A stretch of DNA of 64,000 nucleotides, from assembly GCF_000718305.1 (NCBI RefSeq), contig NZ_JOFQ01000017.1:62001-126000 (forward strand), written 5' to 3'. Numbering within the stretch: the first letter of the stretch is position 1; every line of letters starts with the position of its first letter. The notes below the pieces were generated by a model. That model saw only the letters and a program-made list of their open reading frames with translations, was not told where the DNA came from and ran no database searches. The translations under genes and the position numbers were made by a program. The stretch is from Streptomyces niger. GTDB taxonomy: Bacteria > Actinomycetota > Actinomycetes > Streptomycetales > Streptomycetaceae. Positions 1,127 through 61,542 of the stretch are shown here, in pieces.

Positions 1127-2860
1127 TCAGTCCTCCGGCAGCTCGATCGGGGCGATCTCGTCGTACACGTCGCCCGGGCCCGGGTTGGTGGCGTCCGTGC
1201 CGCCGCCGAGGTGGTGCATCACGCCCCACACGGCGTTCAGCGCGGTCTGCACGGCGCCCTCGGCCCAGCCAGCGGTCCAGGAGATGTCGTCACCGGCGAG
1301 GAAGATGCCGCGCTTGTCCTCGGGAAGGAGGTCCTGCATGAAGTGCGTGAACAGACGGCGCTGGTAGCGGTAGTGGCCCGGCAGGTTGGCCTTGAACGCG
1401 CCCATGAAGTAGGGCTCGTTCTCCCAGGACACGGTCACCGGGTTGCCGATGATGTGCTTCCGGATGTCGACCTTCGGATAGATCTCCGAGAGCGACTTGA
1501 GCATGACCTCCATGCGCTCGTTGGCGTTCAGCGGCAGCCACTTCAGGCTGTCGTCGCACCAGGTGTAGGAGAGGCAGATGACCGCCGGCTCGTCCGGGCC
1601 GTTGTCGAGGAGGTAGGTGCCACGGGTCATCCGGTCCGTCAGCGTCATCGACATGACGTCGCGGCCGGTCGGGTTCCCGTTGTCGTCGACGGCCTTGTCC
1701 AGCCAGAACGGCCGGTCGACGGGCACGAACAGCTTGGAGGACTCCATGTAGTGGGTGCGCTCCATCGCCGTCCAGTGGTCGATGGGGAACAGTGCGTCGT
1801 CGCACTCGATCTTTGACAACAGCATCCAGGACTGCGCGGTGAAGACCGCCGCCCGGAAGGTGCGGATGTCGCCGGAGGCGTCGGTGACGGTGATCCGGTT
1901 GCCGGCCGTGCGGTGCAGCCGGGTGACGGCCGGGCGGGGCGTGCCGTCGTGCAGCGAGGAGAGGGACGTGCCCTGGGCCCAGTGCACGATCTTCGCGGGC
2001 TCGCGCTCCCACAGGCGCAGCGGGAGCTGCTGGCTGCCGCCGACGATGCCGCGGTGGTGGTCGTCGGCCTCGGTGTAGACGACGCGGAGGATCTCCAGGA
2101 TGGAGTTGGGGAAGTCGGTGTCCCAGCCGCCGGTGCCGAAGCCGACCTGGCCGAAGATCTCCCGGTGCCGGAAGGACTTGAAGGAGCTGGAGTCGCAGAG
2201 GAAGCCGTAGAAGGTCTGGTTGTCGAGCTTCTCGACGAGCTTGCCCCAGATCTCGCGGATGCGCGGGACGTCGCGCTCACGGAGGGCCCGGTTCATGTCG
2301 GAGAAGTCGGCGCCCTCCTCCAGGCAGGCGTTCCAGGCCTCGGCCACCTGACGGTAGACCTCGGGCAGGTCGTCGACGGTCTCGGCGTAGTGCGACTCGC
2401 CCTTGAGGTCGACGACGGTGGAGGGCGTCTCGGGCGCGAGCGGGTTCGGGAACGGCTTGGTCTCCAGCCCCACCAGGTCGATGTAGTGCTGCAGCGCCGT
2501 GGAGGACGGCGGGAAGCGCATGGCGCCCATCTCGGCGGTGAGCGAGGGGTCGCAGCCCTCGAAGCCGACGGTGCGCAGCCGGCCGCCGATCTGATCGGCC
2601 TCGTAGACGACGGGCTTGAGGCCCATCTTCATCAGCTCGTAGGCGGTGACGATGCCGGAGAGGCCGCCGCCGATGACCGCGACCTCGGTGCCGTGCTCGG
2701 TCGCGGGTATCTGGCCCAGGCCCGCGGGGTGGGCGAGGAAGTCGTCGTACGCGAAGGGGAAGTCCGGTCCGAACATGGTGATCGGCGGCAGGGGGCGCCC
2801 CCGGCCGTCGGCCGGTGGAGCGTCGGTGTGCTGGACAGCGGTGGGCACCGTGGACGTCAT
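1127..2860 (-). CDS. davB: L-lysine 2-monooxygenase (DavB-like FAD enzyme)
   Basis: Predicted 577-aa flavoprotein that decarboxylates and oxidises L-lysine to 5-aminovaleramide. The N-terminal block ITMFGPDFPFAYDDFLAHP (about 27-45), the FAD dinucleotide motif VAVIGGGLSGIVTAYELM (about 60-78) followed by VVYEADQIGGRLR, and the C-terminal FAD segment FLAGDDISWTAGWAEGAVQ match, from memory, Pseudomonas putida DavB nearly residue for residue in these blocks. The length (about 560 in DavB) also fits. The ATG at 2860 has AAGGAG upstream; an open frame continues to 3058 but lacks an SD and is of low complexity. davA lies 106 bp upstream on the same strand, as in the Pseudomonas dav pair. Other amine or L-amino-acid oxidases are the alternative, but the davA partner argues against them. 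Confidence 0.85.
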   Translation of the reverse strand: MTSTVPTAVQHTDAPPADGRGRPLPPITMFGPDFPFAYDDFLAHPAGLGQIPATEHGTEVAVIGGGLSGIVTAYELMKMGLKPVVYEADQIGGRLRTVGFEGCDPSLTAEMGAMRFPPSSTALQHYIDLVGLETKPFPNPLAPETPSTVVDLKGESHYAETVDDLPEVYRQVAEAWNACLEEGADFSDMNRALRERDVPRIREIWGKLVEKLDNQTFYGFLCDSSSFKSFRHREIFGQVGFGTGGWDTDFPNSILEILRVVYTEADDHHRGIVGGSQQLPLRLWEREPAKIVHWAQGTSLSSLHDGTPRPAVTRLHRTAGNRITVTDASGDIRTFRAAVFTAQSWMLLSKIECDDALFPIDHWTAMERTHYMESSKLFVPVDRPFWLDKAVDDNGNPTGRDVMSMTLTDRMTRGTYLLDNGPDEPAVICLSYTWCDDSLKWLPLNANERMEVMLKSLSEIYPKVDIRKHIIGNPVTVSWENEPYFMGAFKANLPGHYRYQRRLFTHFMQDLLPEDKRGIFLAGDDISWTAGWAEGAVQTALNAVWGVMHHLGGGTDATNPGPGDVYDEIAPIELPED

Positions 2861-2966: not shown

Positions 2967-3764
2967 TCAGCCCAGGGAGCCGTACAGCTCCGGGCGGCGG
3001 TCCGACAGGTAGGTGTTGGCCTCGCGGGAGGCCGCGAGGAAGCCGGGGTCGACGTCACCGAGGACCATCTCCTCGCCGCGCCCGGCGCGGGCCCGTACGA
3101 CCCCGTCGGGCCCGGCCAGGGTGGAGAGCCCGACGAACTCGAACTCGCCCTCGGGGCCGGTGCGGTTGACGTACGCGACGTAGAGCTGGCTCTCGAAGGC
3201 GCGGACCGGGATCATCGCTTCGGCGACGAACTGGTACGGGTGCATCTGCGCGGTGGGCACCACGAGGAAGTCGGTGCCGGCCAGGGCGTGGGCCCGGACG
3301 TTCTCCGGGAACTCCACGTCGTAGCAGATCAGGAGGCCGATCCGGACGCCGGCCAGCTCGGCCTGGACGACGGGCTCGTCGCCGGGGGTGAACATCTCCT
3401 GCTCGAAGCAGCCGAAGAGGTGGGTCTTGCGGTAGTTCGCGAGGCGCGTGCCGTCCGGGCCGATCAGCTGCACGGAGTTGTGCACCTCCGTGCCGGCGCG
3501 CTCCGGGTAGCCGTAGGCGACGGCGATGCCGTGCTCGGCGGCGATCCGCGCGATCTCGTCGGCGCTCTCGCCGTCGGCGGGCTCGGCGAGCTCGCGTACG
3601 CCGGAGCCGATGGCGTAACCGGTCAGGTACAGCTCCGGGCAGGCCAGCAGCCCGGCGCCGGCAGCGGCCGCGTCCTCGGCGGCCCGGGCCAGCGCCTTGA
3701 GGTTGTACGCCACGTCGCCGGGCCGTCCCGAACTCTGGAGCAGGGCGGTGCGCAGCGCAGACAT
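2967..3764 (-). CDS. davA: 5-aminovaleramidase (DavA-like nitrilase-superfamily amidase)
   Basis: A 265-aa carbon-nitrogen hydrolase. The catalytic triad is visible: E44 in CPELYLTGY, K113 in NYRKTHLFG and C147 in LLICYDVEFPEN. The same three blocks and the total length match what I recall of Pseudomonas DavA, which hydrolyses 5-aminovaleramide, the product of DavB, to 5-aminovalerate and ammonia. The ATG at 3764 follows GAGGGG. The gene precedes davB on the same strand, consistent with one transcript. Enzymes for the next steps (5-aminovalerate transaminase, glutarate semialdehyde dehydrogenase) are not in the window. Another aliphatic amidase activity is possible but less likely given the neighbour. 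Confidence 0.82.
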   Translation of the reverse strand: MSALRTALLQSSGRPGDVAYNLKALARAAEDAAAAGAGLLACPELYLTGYAIGSGVRELAEPADGESADEIARIAAEHGIAVAYGYPERAGTEVHNSVQLIGPDGTRLANYRKTHLFGCFEQEMFTPGDEPVVQAELAGVRIGLLICYDVEFPENVRAHALAGTDFLVVPTAQMHPYQFVAEAMIPVRAFESQLYVAYVNRTGPEGEFEFVGLSTLAGPDGVVRARAGRGEEMVLGDVDPGFLAASREANTYLSDRRPELYGSLG

Positions 3765-3872: not shown

Positions 3873-3900
3873 CGTCTAGACGGTACGGTCCGCGGAGCAA
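3873..3900 (-). promoter_or_regulatory. Tentative davA promoter
   Basis: On the minus strand TTGCTC (3900-3895) and TAGACG (3878-3873) are separated by 16 bp, just downstream of the TTGCGC array. The match to the vegetative consensus is only moderate and no start site is known. Confidence 0.3.
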
Positions 3901-3917
3901 GTGGTACAAGGCTGCAC

Positions 3918-3978
3918 CATTGCGCTCCACGTACCGATTCGTTGCGCCTTTCGAGCCGCTTTCGGCGATTCGTTGCGC
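3918..3978. promoter_or_regulatory. Triple TTGCGC operator array upstream of davA (putative Lrp sites)
   Basis: TTGCGC occurs at 3920-3925, 3942-3947 and 3973-3978, with start-to-start gaps of 22 and 31 bp. The second and third copies share the longer word GATTCGTTGCGC. The nearest copy is 156 bp upstream of the davA ATG. The same triplet, with gaps of 21 and 30 bp, lies 171 bp upstream of the permease start. The neighbouring Lrp/AsnC regulator is the obvious candidate protein; that link is inference. Confidence 0.55.
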
Positions 3979-3988
3979 TCCCGCGCGC

Positions 3989-4088
3989 GTCCGTACGCCC
4001 GACAGGGGGCAGGTCCGCACGCCCGAGGCCCGAGGGGGGTCAGGTCTGTACGCCCGAGGGGGCAGGTCCGTACGCCCGAGGGGGTCGG
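3989..4088. repeat. Four tandem imperfect ~22-bp repeats
   Basis: Units of the form GTCCGTACGCCCGAGGGGGCAG begin at 3989, 4013, 4044 and 4066. The second carries an internal 9-bp expansion. They fill the space between the end of the Lrp gene (4099) and the davA operator array, and together with those sites account for most of the gene-free stretch 3765-4098. Confidence 0.8.
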
Positions 4089-4098
4089 GGCGGGGGTG

Positions 4099-4554
4099 TC
4101 AGACGGGGGAGCCGGAGGAGAAGCGCCGCAGGAGCGGCGAGAGCACCAGGACGGACTTGGTCCGCTCGACGAAGTGCTCGCCCGCGATGCGTTCCAGGAC
4201 CCGCTCGAAGTGGCGCATGTCGGAGGCGAAGACCTGAACGAGGGCGTCCGCCTCACCGGTCACGGTGGAGGCGGACGCCACTTCGGGATAGCGCGCGAGG
4301 CCGCGGTGGATGGCCTCGGGCGAGGTGTTGCGACGGCAGTACAGCTCGACGAAGCCCTCGGTCTCCCAGCCGAGCACCGCCGGGTCCACCCGTACGGTGA
4401 ACCCGGTGATGGCTCCCTCGGTCCGCAGCCGGTCCACCCGGCGTTTGACGGCCGGTGCGGAGAGCCCGACCTCCTGTCCGATGTCGGCGTAGGAGCGGCG
4501 GGCGTCTTCCGCGAGGGCGTGGACGATGCGTTCGTCGAGGTCGTTCAGTCGCAC
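4099..4554 (-). CDS. Lrp/AsnC-family transcriptional regulator
   Basis: A 151-aa protein with the usual two-part layout: an N-terminal winged HTH (LDERIVHALAEDARRSYADI, then GLSAPAVKRRVDRL, about residues 5-45) and a C-terminal RAM ligand-binding domain (about 68-142). The GTG start at 4554 gives the canonical beginning MRLNDLDERIV; no strong SD is visible. Its start is 10 bp after the permease stop, so it is probably co-transcribed. davA and davB follow it on the same strand. It likely senses lysine or a related amino acid and controls both transport and catabolism through the TTGCGC arrays; the ligand is inferred from context. Confidence 0.85.
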   Translation of the reverse strand: MRLNDLDERIVHALAEDARRSYADIGQEVGLSAPAVKRRVDRLRTEGAITGFTVRVDPAVLGWETEGFVELYCRRNTSPEAIHRGLARYPEVASASTVTGEADALVQVFASDMRHFERVLERIAGEHFVERTKSVLVLSPLLRRFSSGSPV

Positions 4555-4564
4555 GAGGGGTTGT

Positions 4565-6052
4565 TCACTTCTGGTCGGTGGCCAATCGGGAGCGGCGCAT
4601 GCCGTAAGCGAAGTAGAACACGAGACCGGCCACCATCCAGACTCCGAACACCACCCAGGTGATCAGGTCGAGGCTGCCCATCATCCAGAGGCAGAGCACG
4701 AAGCCGATCGCGGGGAAGAGCGGCGACAGCGGCGTACGGAAGGTCCGCGGCATGTCGGGGCGGGTCTTGCGGAGCACGATGACCGCGACGTTGACCAGCG
4801 CGAACGCGAAGAGCGTACCGATGCTGGTGGCGTCCGCCAGCTGGCCGAGCGGCACGGCGGCGGCCAGGATGCCGCAGAACAGCGAGACGATGACGGTGTT
4901 GGCGCGGGGCGCGCCGGTCTTCGGGTGGACCTTGGAGAAGACCTTGGGCACCAGGCCGTCGCGGGACATCGCGAAGAGGATGCGGGTCTGGCCGTAGAGC
5001 ACGGTCAGCACGACGGAGGCGATGGCGACGACCGCGCCGAGGGCGAGCAGCACGGCCCAGAAGTTCTGGCCGGTGACGTTCTTCATGATCCCGGCGAGCG
5101 CGGCCTCGGTGCCGGAGAACTTCTTCCAGGGCAGCGCGCCCACGGCGACCGCGGCGACCAGGCAGTACAGCGCCGTGACGATGACCAGCGAGAGCATGAT
5201 GGCGCGCGGCAGGTCGCGCTGCGGGTTCTTGGCCTCCTCGCCGGCGGTGGAGGCGGCGTCGAAGCCGATGTAGGAGAAGAAGAGGGTGGCGCCGGCGGCG
5301 CTGACACCGGCCATGCCGAGCGGCATGAAGGGGGCGTAGTTGCCGGCCCGGATGCCCTGGAAGGCGACGCCGCAGAAGAGCAGCAGCGCGGCGATCTTCA
5401 CGGCGACCATGATGGCGTTGGCCCGGGCGCTCTCCTTGGCGCCGCCCAGCAGGAAGACCATCGCGAGCAGCACGACCAGCAGCGCCGGCAGGTTGAAGAT
5501 GCCGCCGTCACCGGGCGGCGCGGCGATCACGTCGGGGATGGTGAAGCCCACGGTGCCCGACAGCAGCTCGTTGAGGTACTGCCCCCAGCCGACCGCGACC
5601 GCGGCCACCGAGACGCCGTACTCCAGGATCAGGCACCAGCCGCAGACCCAGGCGACCAGCTCACCGAGCGTGGCGTACGCGTAGGAGTAGGAGGAGCCGG
5701 AGACCGGGATGGTGCCGGCCAGCTCGGCGTAGGACAGCGCCGAGAAGAGCGCGGTGATGCCCGCGATCACGAAAGAGATGACGACGGCGGGGCCCGCGTC
5801 GGGGACGGCCTCGCCCAGCACCACGAAGATGCCGGTGCCGAGCGTGGCGCCGATGCTGATCATCGTCAGCTGCCACATGCCCAGCGAGCGGCGGAGGCTG
5901 CCGCCCTCACCGTGGCCGGCATCGGCCACCAGGCGTTCGACGGGCTTGCGCCGCATCAGGGCGCCGAGCGTGCCGGTTTTGCCCCCGCGGGGCGGCGGGG
6001 GCGGGGAGTAGCTGCTGGTACCCAGGTCAGGCGGGGCGCCGGTGTCCGACAC
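4565..6052 (-). CDS. APC-family cationic amino acid permease
   Basis: A 495-aa integral membrane transporter with about 12 hydrophobic segments. Early motifs MISIGATLGTGIFVVLGEA (helix 1) and SALSYAELAGTIPVSGSSYS are typical of the CAT/YfnA branch of the APC superfamily, which takes up basic amino acids, as is FFSYIGFDAASTAGEEAKNP in the middle. The GTG at 6052 has AAGGAG at 8 nt spacing, so the longer frame upstream is rejected. It heads a transcript with the Lrp gene 10 bp downstream. With davA/davB nearby, lysine import is the natural proposal; substrate specificity is not proven by sequence. Confidence 0.85.
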   Translation of the reverse strand: MSDTGAPPDLGTSSYSPPPPPRGGKTGTLGALMRRKPVERLVADAGHGEGGSLRRSLGMWQLTMISIGATLGTGIFVVLGEAVPDAGPAVVISFVIAGITALFSALSYAELAGTIPVSGSSYSYAYATLGELVAWVCGWCLILEYGVSVAAVAVGWGQYLNELLSGTVGFTIPDVIAAPPGDGGIFNLPALLVVLLAMVFLLGGAKESARANAIMVAVKIAALLLFCGVAFQGIRAGNYAPFMPLGMAGVSAAGATLFFSYIGFDAASTAGEEAKNPQRDLPRAIMLSLVIVTALYCLVAAVAVGALPWKKFSGTEAALAGIMKNVTGQNFWAVLLALGAVVAIASVVLTVLYGQTRILFAMSRDGLVPKVFSKVHPKTGAPRANTVIVSLFCGILAAAVPLGQLADATSIGTLFAFALVNVAVIVLRKTRPDMPRTFRTPLSPLFPAIGFVLCLWMMGSLDLITWVVFGVWMVAGLVFYFAYGMRRSRLATDQK

Positions 6053-6222
6053 GGGGTGGCTCCTTAATCGCTGCCAATCAGGCGGCGGTGACCGAGGCGG
6101 TCCACATTCGGGCAGCACGAAGCAACCCGCACGGGGGGAACCGCCGAGCGGACGGTCCCCGCCACTCCACGTAACTTGCCTGACCTTAAGGCCCGCGCGC
6201 GACCTGCCGTAATGCGGGTTCC

Positions 6223-6279
6223 TTGCGCATTCGCGCACGATCCTTGCGCACGAACGGCCACGGCGGCCATTTGTTGCGC
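6223..6279. promoter_or_regulatory. Triple TTGCGC operator array upstream of the permease-lrp unit
   Basis: TTGCGC at 6223-6228, 6244-6249 and 6274-6279 (gaps 21 and 30 bp), with a related TCGCGC at 6231-6236. Spacing, orientation and distance to the start codon (171 bp) mirror the array before davA. The gene-free stretch 6053-6514 otherwise holds the guaB1 terminator at its right end and no further recognisable signal. Confidence 0.55.
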
Positions 6280-6514: not shown

Positions 6515-7999
<1,485 letters not shown>

Positions 8000-59256: not shown

Positions 59257-60081
59257 GTGGTCAAGGGGGAGCAGCGGCGCAAGCAGCTCGCGCGCCAGAA
59301 GTACGAGCGTCAGGCCCGGCGCCGGGCCGAGACCCGGCAGAAGACCAAGCGGCGCAACGTGATCATCGCGTCGGTGCTCGCGGTGGTGGTGGCCGCGGGC
59401 GCGACGGCGTACGCGACGGCGGGACTGGTCGGCGCGGACAACAAGAATGACGCGAAGGCGTCGGCCGCCGACCGGCCGAAGGACCCGTGCGCCGCGCCCG
59501 CCAAGGGCGAGCCGTCGAAGAAGCAGTGGAAGAAGGAGCCGAAGCTGACGGTGGACGGCTCCGCGTCGTACACCGCGAAGCTCGCCACCACCTGCGGCGA
59601 CATCTCCCTGAAGCTGGACGCGGAGAAGGCCCCGCACACGGTCAACTCCTTCGACTTCCTGACCCGGCAGGGCTACTTCGACCACAGCCCGTGCCACCGC
59701 CTGGTCGACAGCGACCTGCACGTCCTGCAGTGCGGCGACCCCACCGGCACCGGCCAGGGCACCCCCGGCTACACCATCCCGGACGAGAACCTCAAGGACC
59801 CGCGGCTCAAGGGCGGCGTCTACCCGGCCGGCACGGTCGCGATGGCCAACCGGTACGACGGCCGGAGCGAGAAGACCCGGAACACCGGCGGCAGCCAGTT
59901 CTTCCTGGTCTTCCAGGACAGCAAGCTGCCGGCGAACTACACCCCGTTCGGGACGATCACGCAGGGCATGGACGTCCTGAAGAAGATCGCCAAGGCCGGC
60001 TACACCACCGATCCGCAGACGCAGAACACCGCGCCGAACGCCACCGTCGTCATCGACCGCGCCCGCATCACGAAGTCCTGA
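59257..60081 (+). CDS. Membrane-anchored cyclophilin-type peptidyl-prolyl isomerase
   Basis: A 274-aa protein. A very basic N-terminus (KQLARQKYERQARRRAETRQ), one transmembrane or uncleaved signal helix (VIIASVLAVVVAAGATAYAT, about residues 35-54), a linker, then a cyclophilin domain (about 105-270) with HTVNSFDFLTRQGYFDHSPC, GTVAMANRYDGRSEKTRNTG and GSQFFLVFQDSKLPANYTPF. It probably folds exported proteins outside the membrane. The GTG at 59257 has AAGGAG 9 nt upstream. Divergent from the MBL gene. Confidence 0.9.
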   Translation: MVKGEQRRKQLARQKYERQARRRAETRQKTKRRNVIIASVLAVVVAAGATAYATAGLVGADNKNDAKASAADRPKDPCAAPAKGEPSKKQWKKEPKLTVDGSASYTAKLATTCGDISLKLDAEKAPHTVNSFDFLTRQGYFDHSPCHRLVDSDLHVLQCGDPTGTGQGTPGYTIPDENLKDPRLKGGVYPAGTVAMANRYDGRSEKTRNTGGSQFFLVFQDSKLPANYTPFGTITQGMDVLKKIAKAGYTTDPQTQNTAPNATVVIDRARITKS

Positions 60082-60132
60082 CGTACGCCGGCCTTCCTTG
60101 CCCGGACCACGGAATTTCGGTCGTACGGGATG

Positions 60133-60162
60133 CGGACAGCCGGGCCGCCGGTCGCCTAGATT
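60133..60162 (+). promoter_or_regulatory. Possible promoter of the DUF349 gene
   Basis: CGGACA (60133-60138), 18-bp spacer, TAGATT (60157-60162). It would give a leader of about 145 nt that contains short GC-rich hairpins of no recognised type. Confidence 0.4.
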
Positions 60163-60312
60163 GGCGTTGGGTAGGGTGCCTGCTCCGACGGCTGCCACCC
60201 TCACCCGCAAGAACAGTCCGTCGGACCGGCCGGGGCGCAGTCCCGCCGGACAGAAACTGTGGACGATGCCCGGGGCCTCGTGGCCCCGCCGGCATCATGT
60301 GGAGGAGGCGCT

Positions 60313-61542
60313 GTGAGCAGCGACCCATGGGGCCGCGTCGATGAGACGGGGACCGTTTACGTGCGTACCGCCGACGGCGAGCAGGTCGTCGGATCGTGGC
60401 AGGCGGGATCTCCCGAGGAGGCCCTCGCCTACTTCGAGCGCAAGTATGAGGGCCTGGTCGTCGAGATCGGCCTCCTCGAGCGGCGGGTCAAGACCACCGA
60501 CCTGTCGGCCAAGGACGCCATGACCGCCATCGACCACCTGCGTCAGCAGGTGGACGAGCACCACGCGGTGGGTGACCTGGACGCCCTGCGCAAGCGCCTG
60601 GACGGGCTCGTGCAGACGGTCGAGGCCCGCCGCGAGGAGCGCAAGGCGGTCAAGGCCCGGCAGGCGGACGAGGCCAGGGACGCCAAGGAGAAGCTGGTCG
60701 CCGAGGCCGAGGAGCTGGCCGCGAGCGAGCAGTGGCGGGCGGCCGGCGAGCGGCTGCGGGCGCTGGTCGACACCTGGAAGGGGCTGCCGCGCCTGGACCG
60801 CAAGTCCGACGACGAGCTGTGGCACCGCTTCTCGCACGCCCGGTCGGCGTTCTCCAAGCGGCGCAAGGCGCACTTCGCGTCGCTGGACGCGCAGCGCGAA
60901 CAGGCCAGGCAGACCAAGGAGAAGCTGGTCGCGGACGCCGAGGCGCTGTCGAACTCCACGGACTGGGGCCCGACGGCCGCCCGGTACCGCGAGCTGATGC
61001 AGGAGTGGAAGGCCGCGGGCCGCGCCCAGCGCGAGCACGAGGACGACCTGTGGAACCGCTTCCGCGGCGCCCAGGACGTGTTCTTCCAGGCCCGCAGCGA
61101 GGTCTTCGCGGAGCGGGACGCCGAGCAGCGGGAGAACCTCACCAAGAAGGAGGAGCTGGCCGTCGAGGCCGAGAAGCTGCTCCCGGTCTCGGACCTCAAG
61201 GCCGCGCGGGCCGCGTTCCGTTCGATCAACGAGCGGTGGGAGGCCATCGGCCACGTGCCGCGGGACGCCCGCCCGAAGATCGAGGGCCGGATGCACGCGG
61301 TCGAGCGCGCCATCCAGGAGGCCGAGGAGGCCGAGTGGCGGCGGACCAACCCCGAGGCGCGGGCGCGTGCCGCGGGGCTGACCGGCCAGCTCCAGGACGC
61401 CGTCGACAAGCTCCAGAAGCAGATCGACACGGCCCGGGCCGCCGGCAACGACGCCAAGGCCGACAAGCTCGCCCGTGAGCTGGAGGGCCGCCAGGCCCTG
61501 CTGGACCAGGCCCAGAAGGGCCTGCAGGAGTTCGGCGGCTGA
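60313..61542 (+). CDS. DUF349-domain coiled-coil protein
   Basis: A 409-aa almost wholly helical protein. Three DUF349 repeats can be read: about residues 120-190 (ASEQWRAAGERLRALVDTWK), 200-268 (NSTDWGPTAARYRELMQEWK) and 285-355 (KAARAAFRSINERWEAIGHV). Each holds the W(K/E)xxG core. The C-terminus is a coiled coil (LQDAVDKLQKQIDTARAAGN). The GTG at 60313 follows GGAGGAGG. DUF349 proteins are abundant in actinobacteria but poorly understood. Convergent with relA. Confidence 0.85.
   Translation: MSSDPWGRVDETGTVYVRTADGEQVVGSWQAGSPEEALAYFERKYEGLVVEIGLLERRVKTTDLSAKDAMTAIDHLRQQVDEHHAVGDLDALRKRLDGLVQTVEARREERKAVKARQADEARDAKEKLVAEAEELAASEQWRAAGERLRALVDTWKGLPRLDRKSDDELWHRFSHARSAFSKRRKAHFASLDAQREQARQTKEKLVADAEALSNSTDWGPTAARYRELMQEWKAAGRAQREHEDDLWNRFRGAQDVFFQARSEVFAERDAEQRENLTKKEELAVEAEKLLPVSDLKAARAAFRSINERWEAIGHVPRDARPKIEGRMHAVERAIQEAEEAEWRRTNPEARARAAGLTGQLQDAVDKLQKQIDTARAAGNDAKADKLARELEGRQALLDQAQKGLQEFGG

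Follow-up and report, generated by a model that had tools for sequence, protein, structure and literature searches.

A matched pair of putative three-site Lrp operators before the permease-lrp and davA-davB operons of Streptomyces

The window, i.e., the whole stretch of 64,000 nucleotides from Streptomyces niger that was analyzed, carries on its minus strand, in this order, guaB1, an amino-acid permease gene, a gene for an Lrp/AsnC-family regulator (lrp), davA, and davB. Three copies of the word TTGCGC stand before davA (plus-strand starts at 3920, 3942, and 3973, with start-to-start distances of 22 and 31 bp) and three more before the permease gene (6223, 6244, and 6274; 21 and 30 bp). The davA array lies 156 bp from the start codon of its gene (ATG at 3764), and the permease array 171 bp from its own (GTG at 6052). 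An earlier sequence-only reading of this DNA had pointed out the six positions with their common orientation, spacings, and distances from the start codons, and had quoted flanking sequences; all of them were recovered. As davA and the permease gene are located on the minus strand, the word reads GCGCAA in the sense of the genes, with site 1 far from the promoter and site 3 near it. In gene sense, the pattern of each array is GCGCAA-N24/25-GCGCAA-N15/16-GCGCAA, and the spacings are hereafter written as 31/22 (davA) and 30/21 (permease). Each site covers about 15 bp, with a strong left half (RCGCAA) and a weak right half; the consensus of site 1 over 72 davA loci (the window and 71 relatives) is GCGCAACGAATCGCCG. 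The features are listed in table 1.

Table 1. Genes, putative operator sites, and predicted promoter hexamers at the locus (window positions)
Feature	Position	Strand	Details
APC-type amino-acid permease	4565..6052	-	495 aa; GTG start at 6052; TIGR00909 591 bits (cut-off 557), PF13520, PF13906 AA_permease_C
Lrp/AsnC-family regulator gene (lrp)	4099..4554	-	151 aa; proposed regulator for both arrays
davA-like carbon-nitrogen hydrolase, candidate 5-aminovaleramidase	2967..3764	-	265 aa; ATG at 3764; PF00795
davB-like L-lysine 2-monooxygenase / L-amino acid oxidase	1127..2860	-	577 aa; PF01593
Permease operator site 1 (putative)	6264..6278	-	word 6274-6279
Permease operator site 2 (putative)	6234..6248	-	word 6244-6249; 30 bp closer to the gene than site 1
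Permease operator site 3 (putative)	6213..6227	-	word 6223-6228; 21 bp beyond site 2, abutting the -35
Predicted -35 of permease-lrp	6207..6212	-	TTACGG; 16 bp from start of third word
Predicted -10 of permease-lrp	6183..6188	-	TAAGGT; spacer 18
davA operator site 1 (putative)	3963..3977	-	15 bp, CGCAACGAATCGCCG in gene sense; word GCGCAA 3973-3978
davA operator site 2 (putative)	3932..3946	-	word 3942-3947; 31 bp closer to the gene than site 1
davA operator site 3 (putative)	3910..3924	-	word 3920-3925; 22 bp beyond site 2; the 15 bp end at the -35 hexamer
Predicted -35 of davA-davB	3904..3909	-	TTGTAC; 16 bp from start of third word
Predicted -10 of davA-davB	3880..3885	-	TACCGT; spacer 18

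The word TTGCGC by itself is no more frequent in the window than expected (34 observed vs. 41.6 expected). The exact triple at both spacings, with slight slack, was found only twice in the 8,485,418 bases of the genome, both times at this locus, and the reversed-pattern control gave no match. Neither the exact triple nor any TTGCGC triple with gaps of 10-30 bp occurred in 300 simulated sequences of 64 kb with the dinucleotide make-up of the window (19.2 Mb). The two genomic triples and the empty simulation indicate that the clustering is not due to chance, as the sequence-only reading had held. With up to 3 mismatches in 18, the genome search gave 13 matches at 31/22 (vs. 4 in the control) and 24 at 30/21 (vs. 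48). A third array of either spacing was sought among these matches and dismissed, all those listed, save the two known arrays, having two or three mismatches; thus the random occurrence elsewhere, which would have spoken against the earlier claim, was not seen. The single-site search with GCGCAAYGAWTCNCCG (at most one mismatch) returned five matches in the genome and two in the control, site 1 of davA being the sole exact match. The five other known sites are too diverged for this search, so further single-site targets may exist. Elsewhere in the window (59277-60866), six TTGCGC words lie on the minus strand within 1.6 kb, without the spacing of the arrays.

The conservation of the arrays was studied in 80 loci, the best of 498 ranked by Lrp similarity (79 from Streptomyces and one from Streptosporangium, L046), which make 81 with the window. 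Loci were left out when the gene was not in the stretch or was too close to its edge; the permease was usable in 78 loci (not in L069, L088, and L098) and davA in 74 (not in L057, L069, L071, L098, L101, L109, and L110). All pairs of spacings from 14 to 45 bp (1024 pairs) were compared at a threshold of at least 15 of 18 matches. The best pair for the permease upstream regions was 30/21, present in 76 of the 78 loci (L054 and L089 fell short), and for the davA upstream regions 31/22, in 72 of the 74 (L043 and L078 fell short). Shuffled upstream regions gave at most one locus. At 16 or more matches out of 18, both strands of 804,849 bases contain 131 arrays, and none is located outside the regions upstream of the permease, davA, or davB genes. 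In detail, 61 precede the permease, all with 30/21, 68 precede davA, all with 31/22, and two with 31/22 precede davB at L101 and L109, in which no davA was found. An extra GCGCAA is placed upstream of the normal permease words in a few loci, at 8 bp (L055, L062, and L065) or 21 bp (L110).

A looser pattern of three CGCAA words is present in 261 of 295 Streptomyces genomes, and its reversed form in 26 of 295, as counted by eye. Nine of the looser arrays, mostly chosen because they lie kilobases away from lrp, are each positioned 128-156 bp before davA, and eight of the nine fetched stretches contain no lrp. The upstream regions of the relatives thus show a real and conserved control element common to the permease-lrp and davA-davB operons. 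Absence from relatives would have spoken against the earlier claim; the arrays persist across Streptomyces.

The third word keeps a fixed distance to the predicted promoter. In davA, the hexamer at +16 of the third GCGCAA starts with TTGT in 72 of 72 loci (TTGTCC, TTGTCG, TTGTAC, or TTGTTC); in the permease it starts with TT in 76 of 76 (TTAC.. in 72, a different TT hexamer in the remaining four). A TANNNT -10 follows in every case, with a spacer of 18 in 70 of the 72 davA loci (17 in two) and in 70 of the 76 permease loci (17 in six). The distance from the third word to the start codon ranges from 79 to 161 bp in davA and from 100 to 288 bp in the permease, a variation of up to 188 bp. As this distance varies while the offset to the -35 is fixed, the array is tied to the promoter and not to the start of the gene. 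If transcription starts about seven bases past the predicted -10, the centers of the sites would be near -44, -65, and -96, and the three sites, separated by two and three turns, are predicted to face the same side of the helix. This spacing is compatible with the binding of Lrp dimers at intervals of two and three helical turns, in agreement with the earlier proposal. Spacings of two or three turns are described for Lrp sites in the accessible part of PMC2995911. The arrays show this Lrp-type build, with sites of about 15 bp and conserved distances of 30-31 and 21-22 bp, and from it we infer the link between the protein and the sites.

Only 10 bp separate the 3′ end of the permease gene from the start of lrp. 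The Lrp has an AsnC-type helix-turn-helix at its N-terminus (PF13404, 58.7 bits, cut-off 27) and a RAM effector domain at its C-terminus (PF01037 AsnC_trans_reg, 52.2 bits, cut-off 25). Against the NCBIfam LysM equivalog (NF040947), it scores 68.2 bits, a weak match under the cut-off of 180. Among the best 80 of 498 loci its nearest relative is that of S. ochraceiscleroticus, with 98% identity. The structures 2w25 and 4pcq belong to the same Lrp/AsnC family, with low similarity to the window protein (E 3e-15 and 2.4e-5, respectively). We take these to be the mycobacterial Rv3291c and Rv2324, linked to lysine aminotransferase and rocD genes.

The products of the second operon point to lysine. 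DavB gives E 8.8e-236 against 3we0, an L-amino acid oxidase/monooxygenase of solved structure, and by sequence it qualifies as the DavB of the davBA (5-aminovalerate) pathway of lysine degradation. The substrate of the Pseudomonas L-amino acid oxidase/monooxygenase is L-lysine, according to the available text of PMC5832979. DavA is a candidate only, its name and substrate being assigned from the position beside davB, as its family match is CN_hydrolase.

Arrays of a related type were found before other operons. In the same genome, a third, diverged array is located between an lrp paralog and ddaH-rocD (L144, G000:C3:61000-76000, at 7356 on the minus strand). Its spacing is 31/21, its words are CGCAC, CGCAC, and CGCAG, and it has TTGTCC at +16 followed by a TANNNT -10. 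In Streptomyces, ddaH-rocD comes after this paralog (lrp2, 51-56% identical). The interval from lrp2 to ddaH holds a 31/21 array (at least 12/15) in 19 of 22 such loci (missing in L172, L178, and L179), and the hexamer at +16 is TTGTCG or a related one. The scan of these loci gave no off-target matches, and none with eight permuted words or with the reversed sequence. Sites 1 and 2 of the ddaH array have the form CGCAg-N5-cTGCG, a clear 15-bp dyad, unlike the dav sites. The region upstream of lrp2 itself was also inspected over 350 bp, with no array in Streptomyces bar one stray word.

In other families of the same taxonomic order, relatives of the Lrp (56-64% identical) adjoin rocD, the ornithine aminotransferase gene, or ddaH together with rocD. 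In two sister families, 31/21 arrays precede rocD (G037) and ddaH-rocD-lrp (four genomes of f3; G038, G043, G046, and G048); they have a TTG hexamer at +16, followed by TANNNT after a spacer of 17. G054, a more distant genome of another family, has a 30/22 array (14/15) before ddaH. Of 13 regions inspected, seven showed an array at 14/15 or better, including G054 and the lrp2 region of G028, and six showed none at 14/15 (L144, L146, L150, L154, L155, and L156). In a class-level sample of 40 loci, taken from 85 matching genomes outside the genus, the array geometry was found beside lrp in nine, seven of them at 13/15 or better, compared with none for eight permuted words and one for the reversed sequence. 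The recurring neighbor is an Lrp-family gene. A tree built from 48 proteins separates lrp2 (22 rows) from the dav-type lrp (16 rows), both groups being well supported, and places the Lrp of G037 nearest to the dav group with moderate support. In a further family (f19), three loci (L270 of G614, L271 of G576, and L238 of G437) have this Lrp subfamily paired with davB, and two of them also with davA. The word and spacing tested revealed no array there, perhaps because the operators have diverged.

Since arrays also precede ornithine-aminotransferase operons, the architecture extends beyond lysine breakdown. There is about an even chance that it is an ancient, modular element of the promoters for basic-amino-acid breakdown in actinomycetes, namely a three-dimer Lrp operator with fixed -35 geometry that would have arisen with an Lrp beside ddaH-rocD, been duplicated, and been carried to the lysine breakdown of Streptomyces. 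Shifts in the word (CGCAA vs. CGCAG) and in the spacing (31/22, 30/21, and 31/21) could separate the two Lrp paralogs and keep their operons apart.

Genomes without lrp were compared for davB and the array. With a cut-off better than E 1e-50, 11 Streptomyces genomes are without an lrp ortholog, G028 (see below) among them. Three genomes picked solely for this lack (G079, G108, and G152) have neither davB nor the array. Seven others (G189, G202, G227, G265, G296, G321, and G393) are without the lrp ortholog, array, and davB; these were picked from the array-less set, so that the lack of the array reflects the selection, and G202 and G227 are <90% complete. Lrp-type proteins are numerous in the genus, as 34 of 37 genomes contain at least 10 matches to the window Lrp at E 0.001 or better.

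With considerable confidence, the two arrays are read as a matched pair of three-site operators for the Lrp encoded between them, which probably activates both operons. Judged from sequence, this Lrp very probably binds the arrays, and activation is likely to be the outcome rather than repression; for the effector, lysine or a lysine product is somewhat favored. The gene between the arrays, put forward in the sequence-only reading as the regulator, is by far the best candidate because the same geometry recurs beside orthologous and paralogous lrp genes adjoining other operons. On the whole, the earlier interpretation as a lysine-responsive regulon is partly supported.

In the proposed mechanism, three Lrp dimers would line up along the same side of the DNA at intervals of 21-22 and 30-31 bp, the third touching the -35 hexamer. 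Such a layout would suit an activator that contacts RNA polymerase or bends the DNA upstream of the promoter. When the amino acid enters the cell, effector-loaded Lrp would bind the three sites, or change its shape on them, and would raise its own permease-lrp operon, in a positive loop, together with davA-davB, whose products would convert lysine to 5-aminovalerate. The resemblance to the build of Ss-LrpB (see below), here placed on bacterial promoters, is the reason for reading the system as an activating, self-reinforcing switch.

A repressor, whose three dimers would wrap the upstream DNA and hinder RNA polymerase until lysine relieves it, is an unlikely alternative. In its favor, the third site directly adjoins the -35, dual regulation occurs among Lrp proteins, and Ss-LrpB wraps DNA once its three sites are occupied (PMC4046817 and PMC2995911). 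Against it, the sites leave the -35, the -10, and the predicted start uncovered and are all upstream and strictly phased, as expected of an activator. It is quite improbable that a different regulator binds the arrays and that lrp is merely a neighbor, given that an Lrp-family gene is found near the arrays of the permease, ddaH, rocD and, in many loci, davA, in several families, that the three genomes chosen for lacking lrp have neither array nor davB, and that the spacing fits Lrp practice (accessible part of PMC2995911). What such a regulator would explain is the imperfect co-occurrence: in G028, an assembly of 1300 contigs, the array and davB are near a contig start and no lrp ortholog was found, and 27 of 34 Streptomyces genomes without the strict array keep the lrp ortholog. 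The latter means that arrays vary beyond the pattern or have decayed, and some of the 27 probably carry arrays that just miss it; for instance, those of L049 and L085, with match coordinates equal to G346 and G008, score 15-16/18. A chance or compositional origin of the clustering can practically be dismissed, for although TTGCGC is a common word in GC-rich DNA, the conservation, the genome-wide uniqueness, and the simulation refute it.

Besides these two points of co-occurrence, several others weigh against activation of lysine genes by an Lrp on conserved operators. The dyad symmetry of the dav and permease sites is weak. G010, with an Lrp 77% identical and with davA-davB, has a partial array only, and around the Lrp of G040 (62% identical) neither an array nor these neighbors are found in 17 kb. 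Three further lrp paralogs (L154, L155, and L156) are without an array at 14/15, as are, at the stringency tested, 31 of the 40 class-level lrp loci, three of them with lrp near davB. TT at +16 and TANNNT were search conditions in the 22-locus ddaH scan and the 40-locus class scan, and hence are not independent results there. For LysM, lysine has been proposed to undo activation, so the effector could act in the opposite direction (PMC2995911, accessible part). The effector itself may not be lysine; ornithine, arginine, 5-aminovalerate, or another basic amino acid, in a general basic-amino-acid switch, is the less probable choice and still a real alternative, because the other partners of the array are ornithine genes. 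The operator geometry is shared by ddaH-rocD loci that have a relative of the Lrp next to them, and the sister-family lrp closest to the dav type (G037, 64% identity) adjoins rocD in a genome where no davB was found. Lysine is favored by the gene content: davA is in the same stretch as the dav-type lrp in 74 of the 81 loci, and the separate grouping of dav lrp and ddaH-linked lrp2 makes specialization plausible.

The closest known parallel is Ss-LrpB of Sulfolobus solfataricus, three dimers of which bind cooperatively to three neighboring sites before its own gene (accessible text of PMC4046817). Like the system described here, it is a local Lrp-type regulator with three sites, and neighboring permease genes are its activated targets; the half-site of its 15-bp dyad, TTGCAAAATTTGCAA, is close to the TTGCG half found here (same source). 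On the contrary, it works with the archaeal promoter machinery, its target is pyruvate ferredoxin oxidoreductase metabolism, and the accessible text mentions no dav or roc genes (PMC4046817). LysM of S. solfataricus and FL11 of Pyrococcus horikoshii are lysine-responsive Lrp-family members, but lysine breakdown is not their target: they regulate lysine biosynthesis or, globally, a large set of genes (PMC2995911).

In the open-access literature, among the titles and abstracts listed and with most subscription papers outside the search, no description was found of the operator or regulon, its promoter geometry, the two-operon lysine set, or the ddaH-rocD sister. Lrp proteins with phased sites are already known; the novelty lies in an unusually strict and portable architecture. 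To our knowledge, no sites or effectors are known for most of the many Streptomyces Lrp-type regulators. For one of them, this work provides a predicted operator that is precise to the base and widespread in Streptomyces, and for its paralog a diverged one. With the operons named and the promoters predicted, it suggests when lysine degradation and uptake are on. The natural promoter set with its spacing variants is useful for studies of the contact between Lrp activators and RNA polymerase, and a lysine sensor part for the production of 5-aminovalerate or other lysine-derived products is possible.

Regarding the neighboring genes, 70 of the 81 loci have guaB1 (GMP reductase family; window 6515-7954) on the upstream side of the permease, and some of the remaining stretches end before it. 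This neighborhood is conserved without an obvious metabolic link to the permease-lrp and dav genes. Between lrp and davA, two inspected loci, whose open reading frames were judged by reading, showed no sign of a conserved gene: L047 (5450-8888) contains LysR- and MFS-like open reading frames and L052 (5450-6427) one small open reading frame. In many loci, this gap holds one to several kilobases of inserted DNA, and the array remains with davA.

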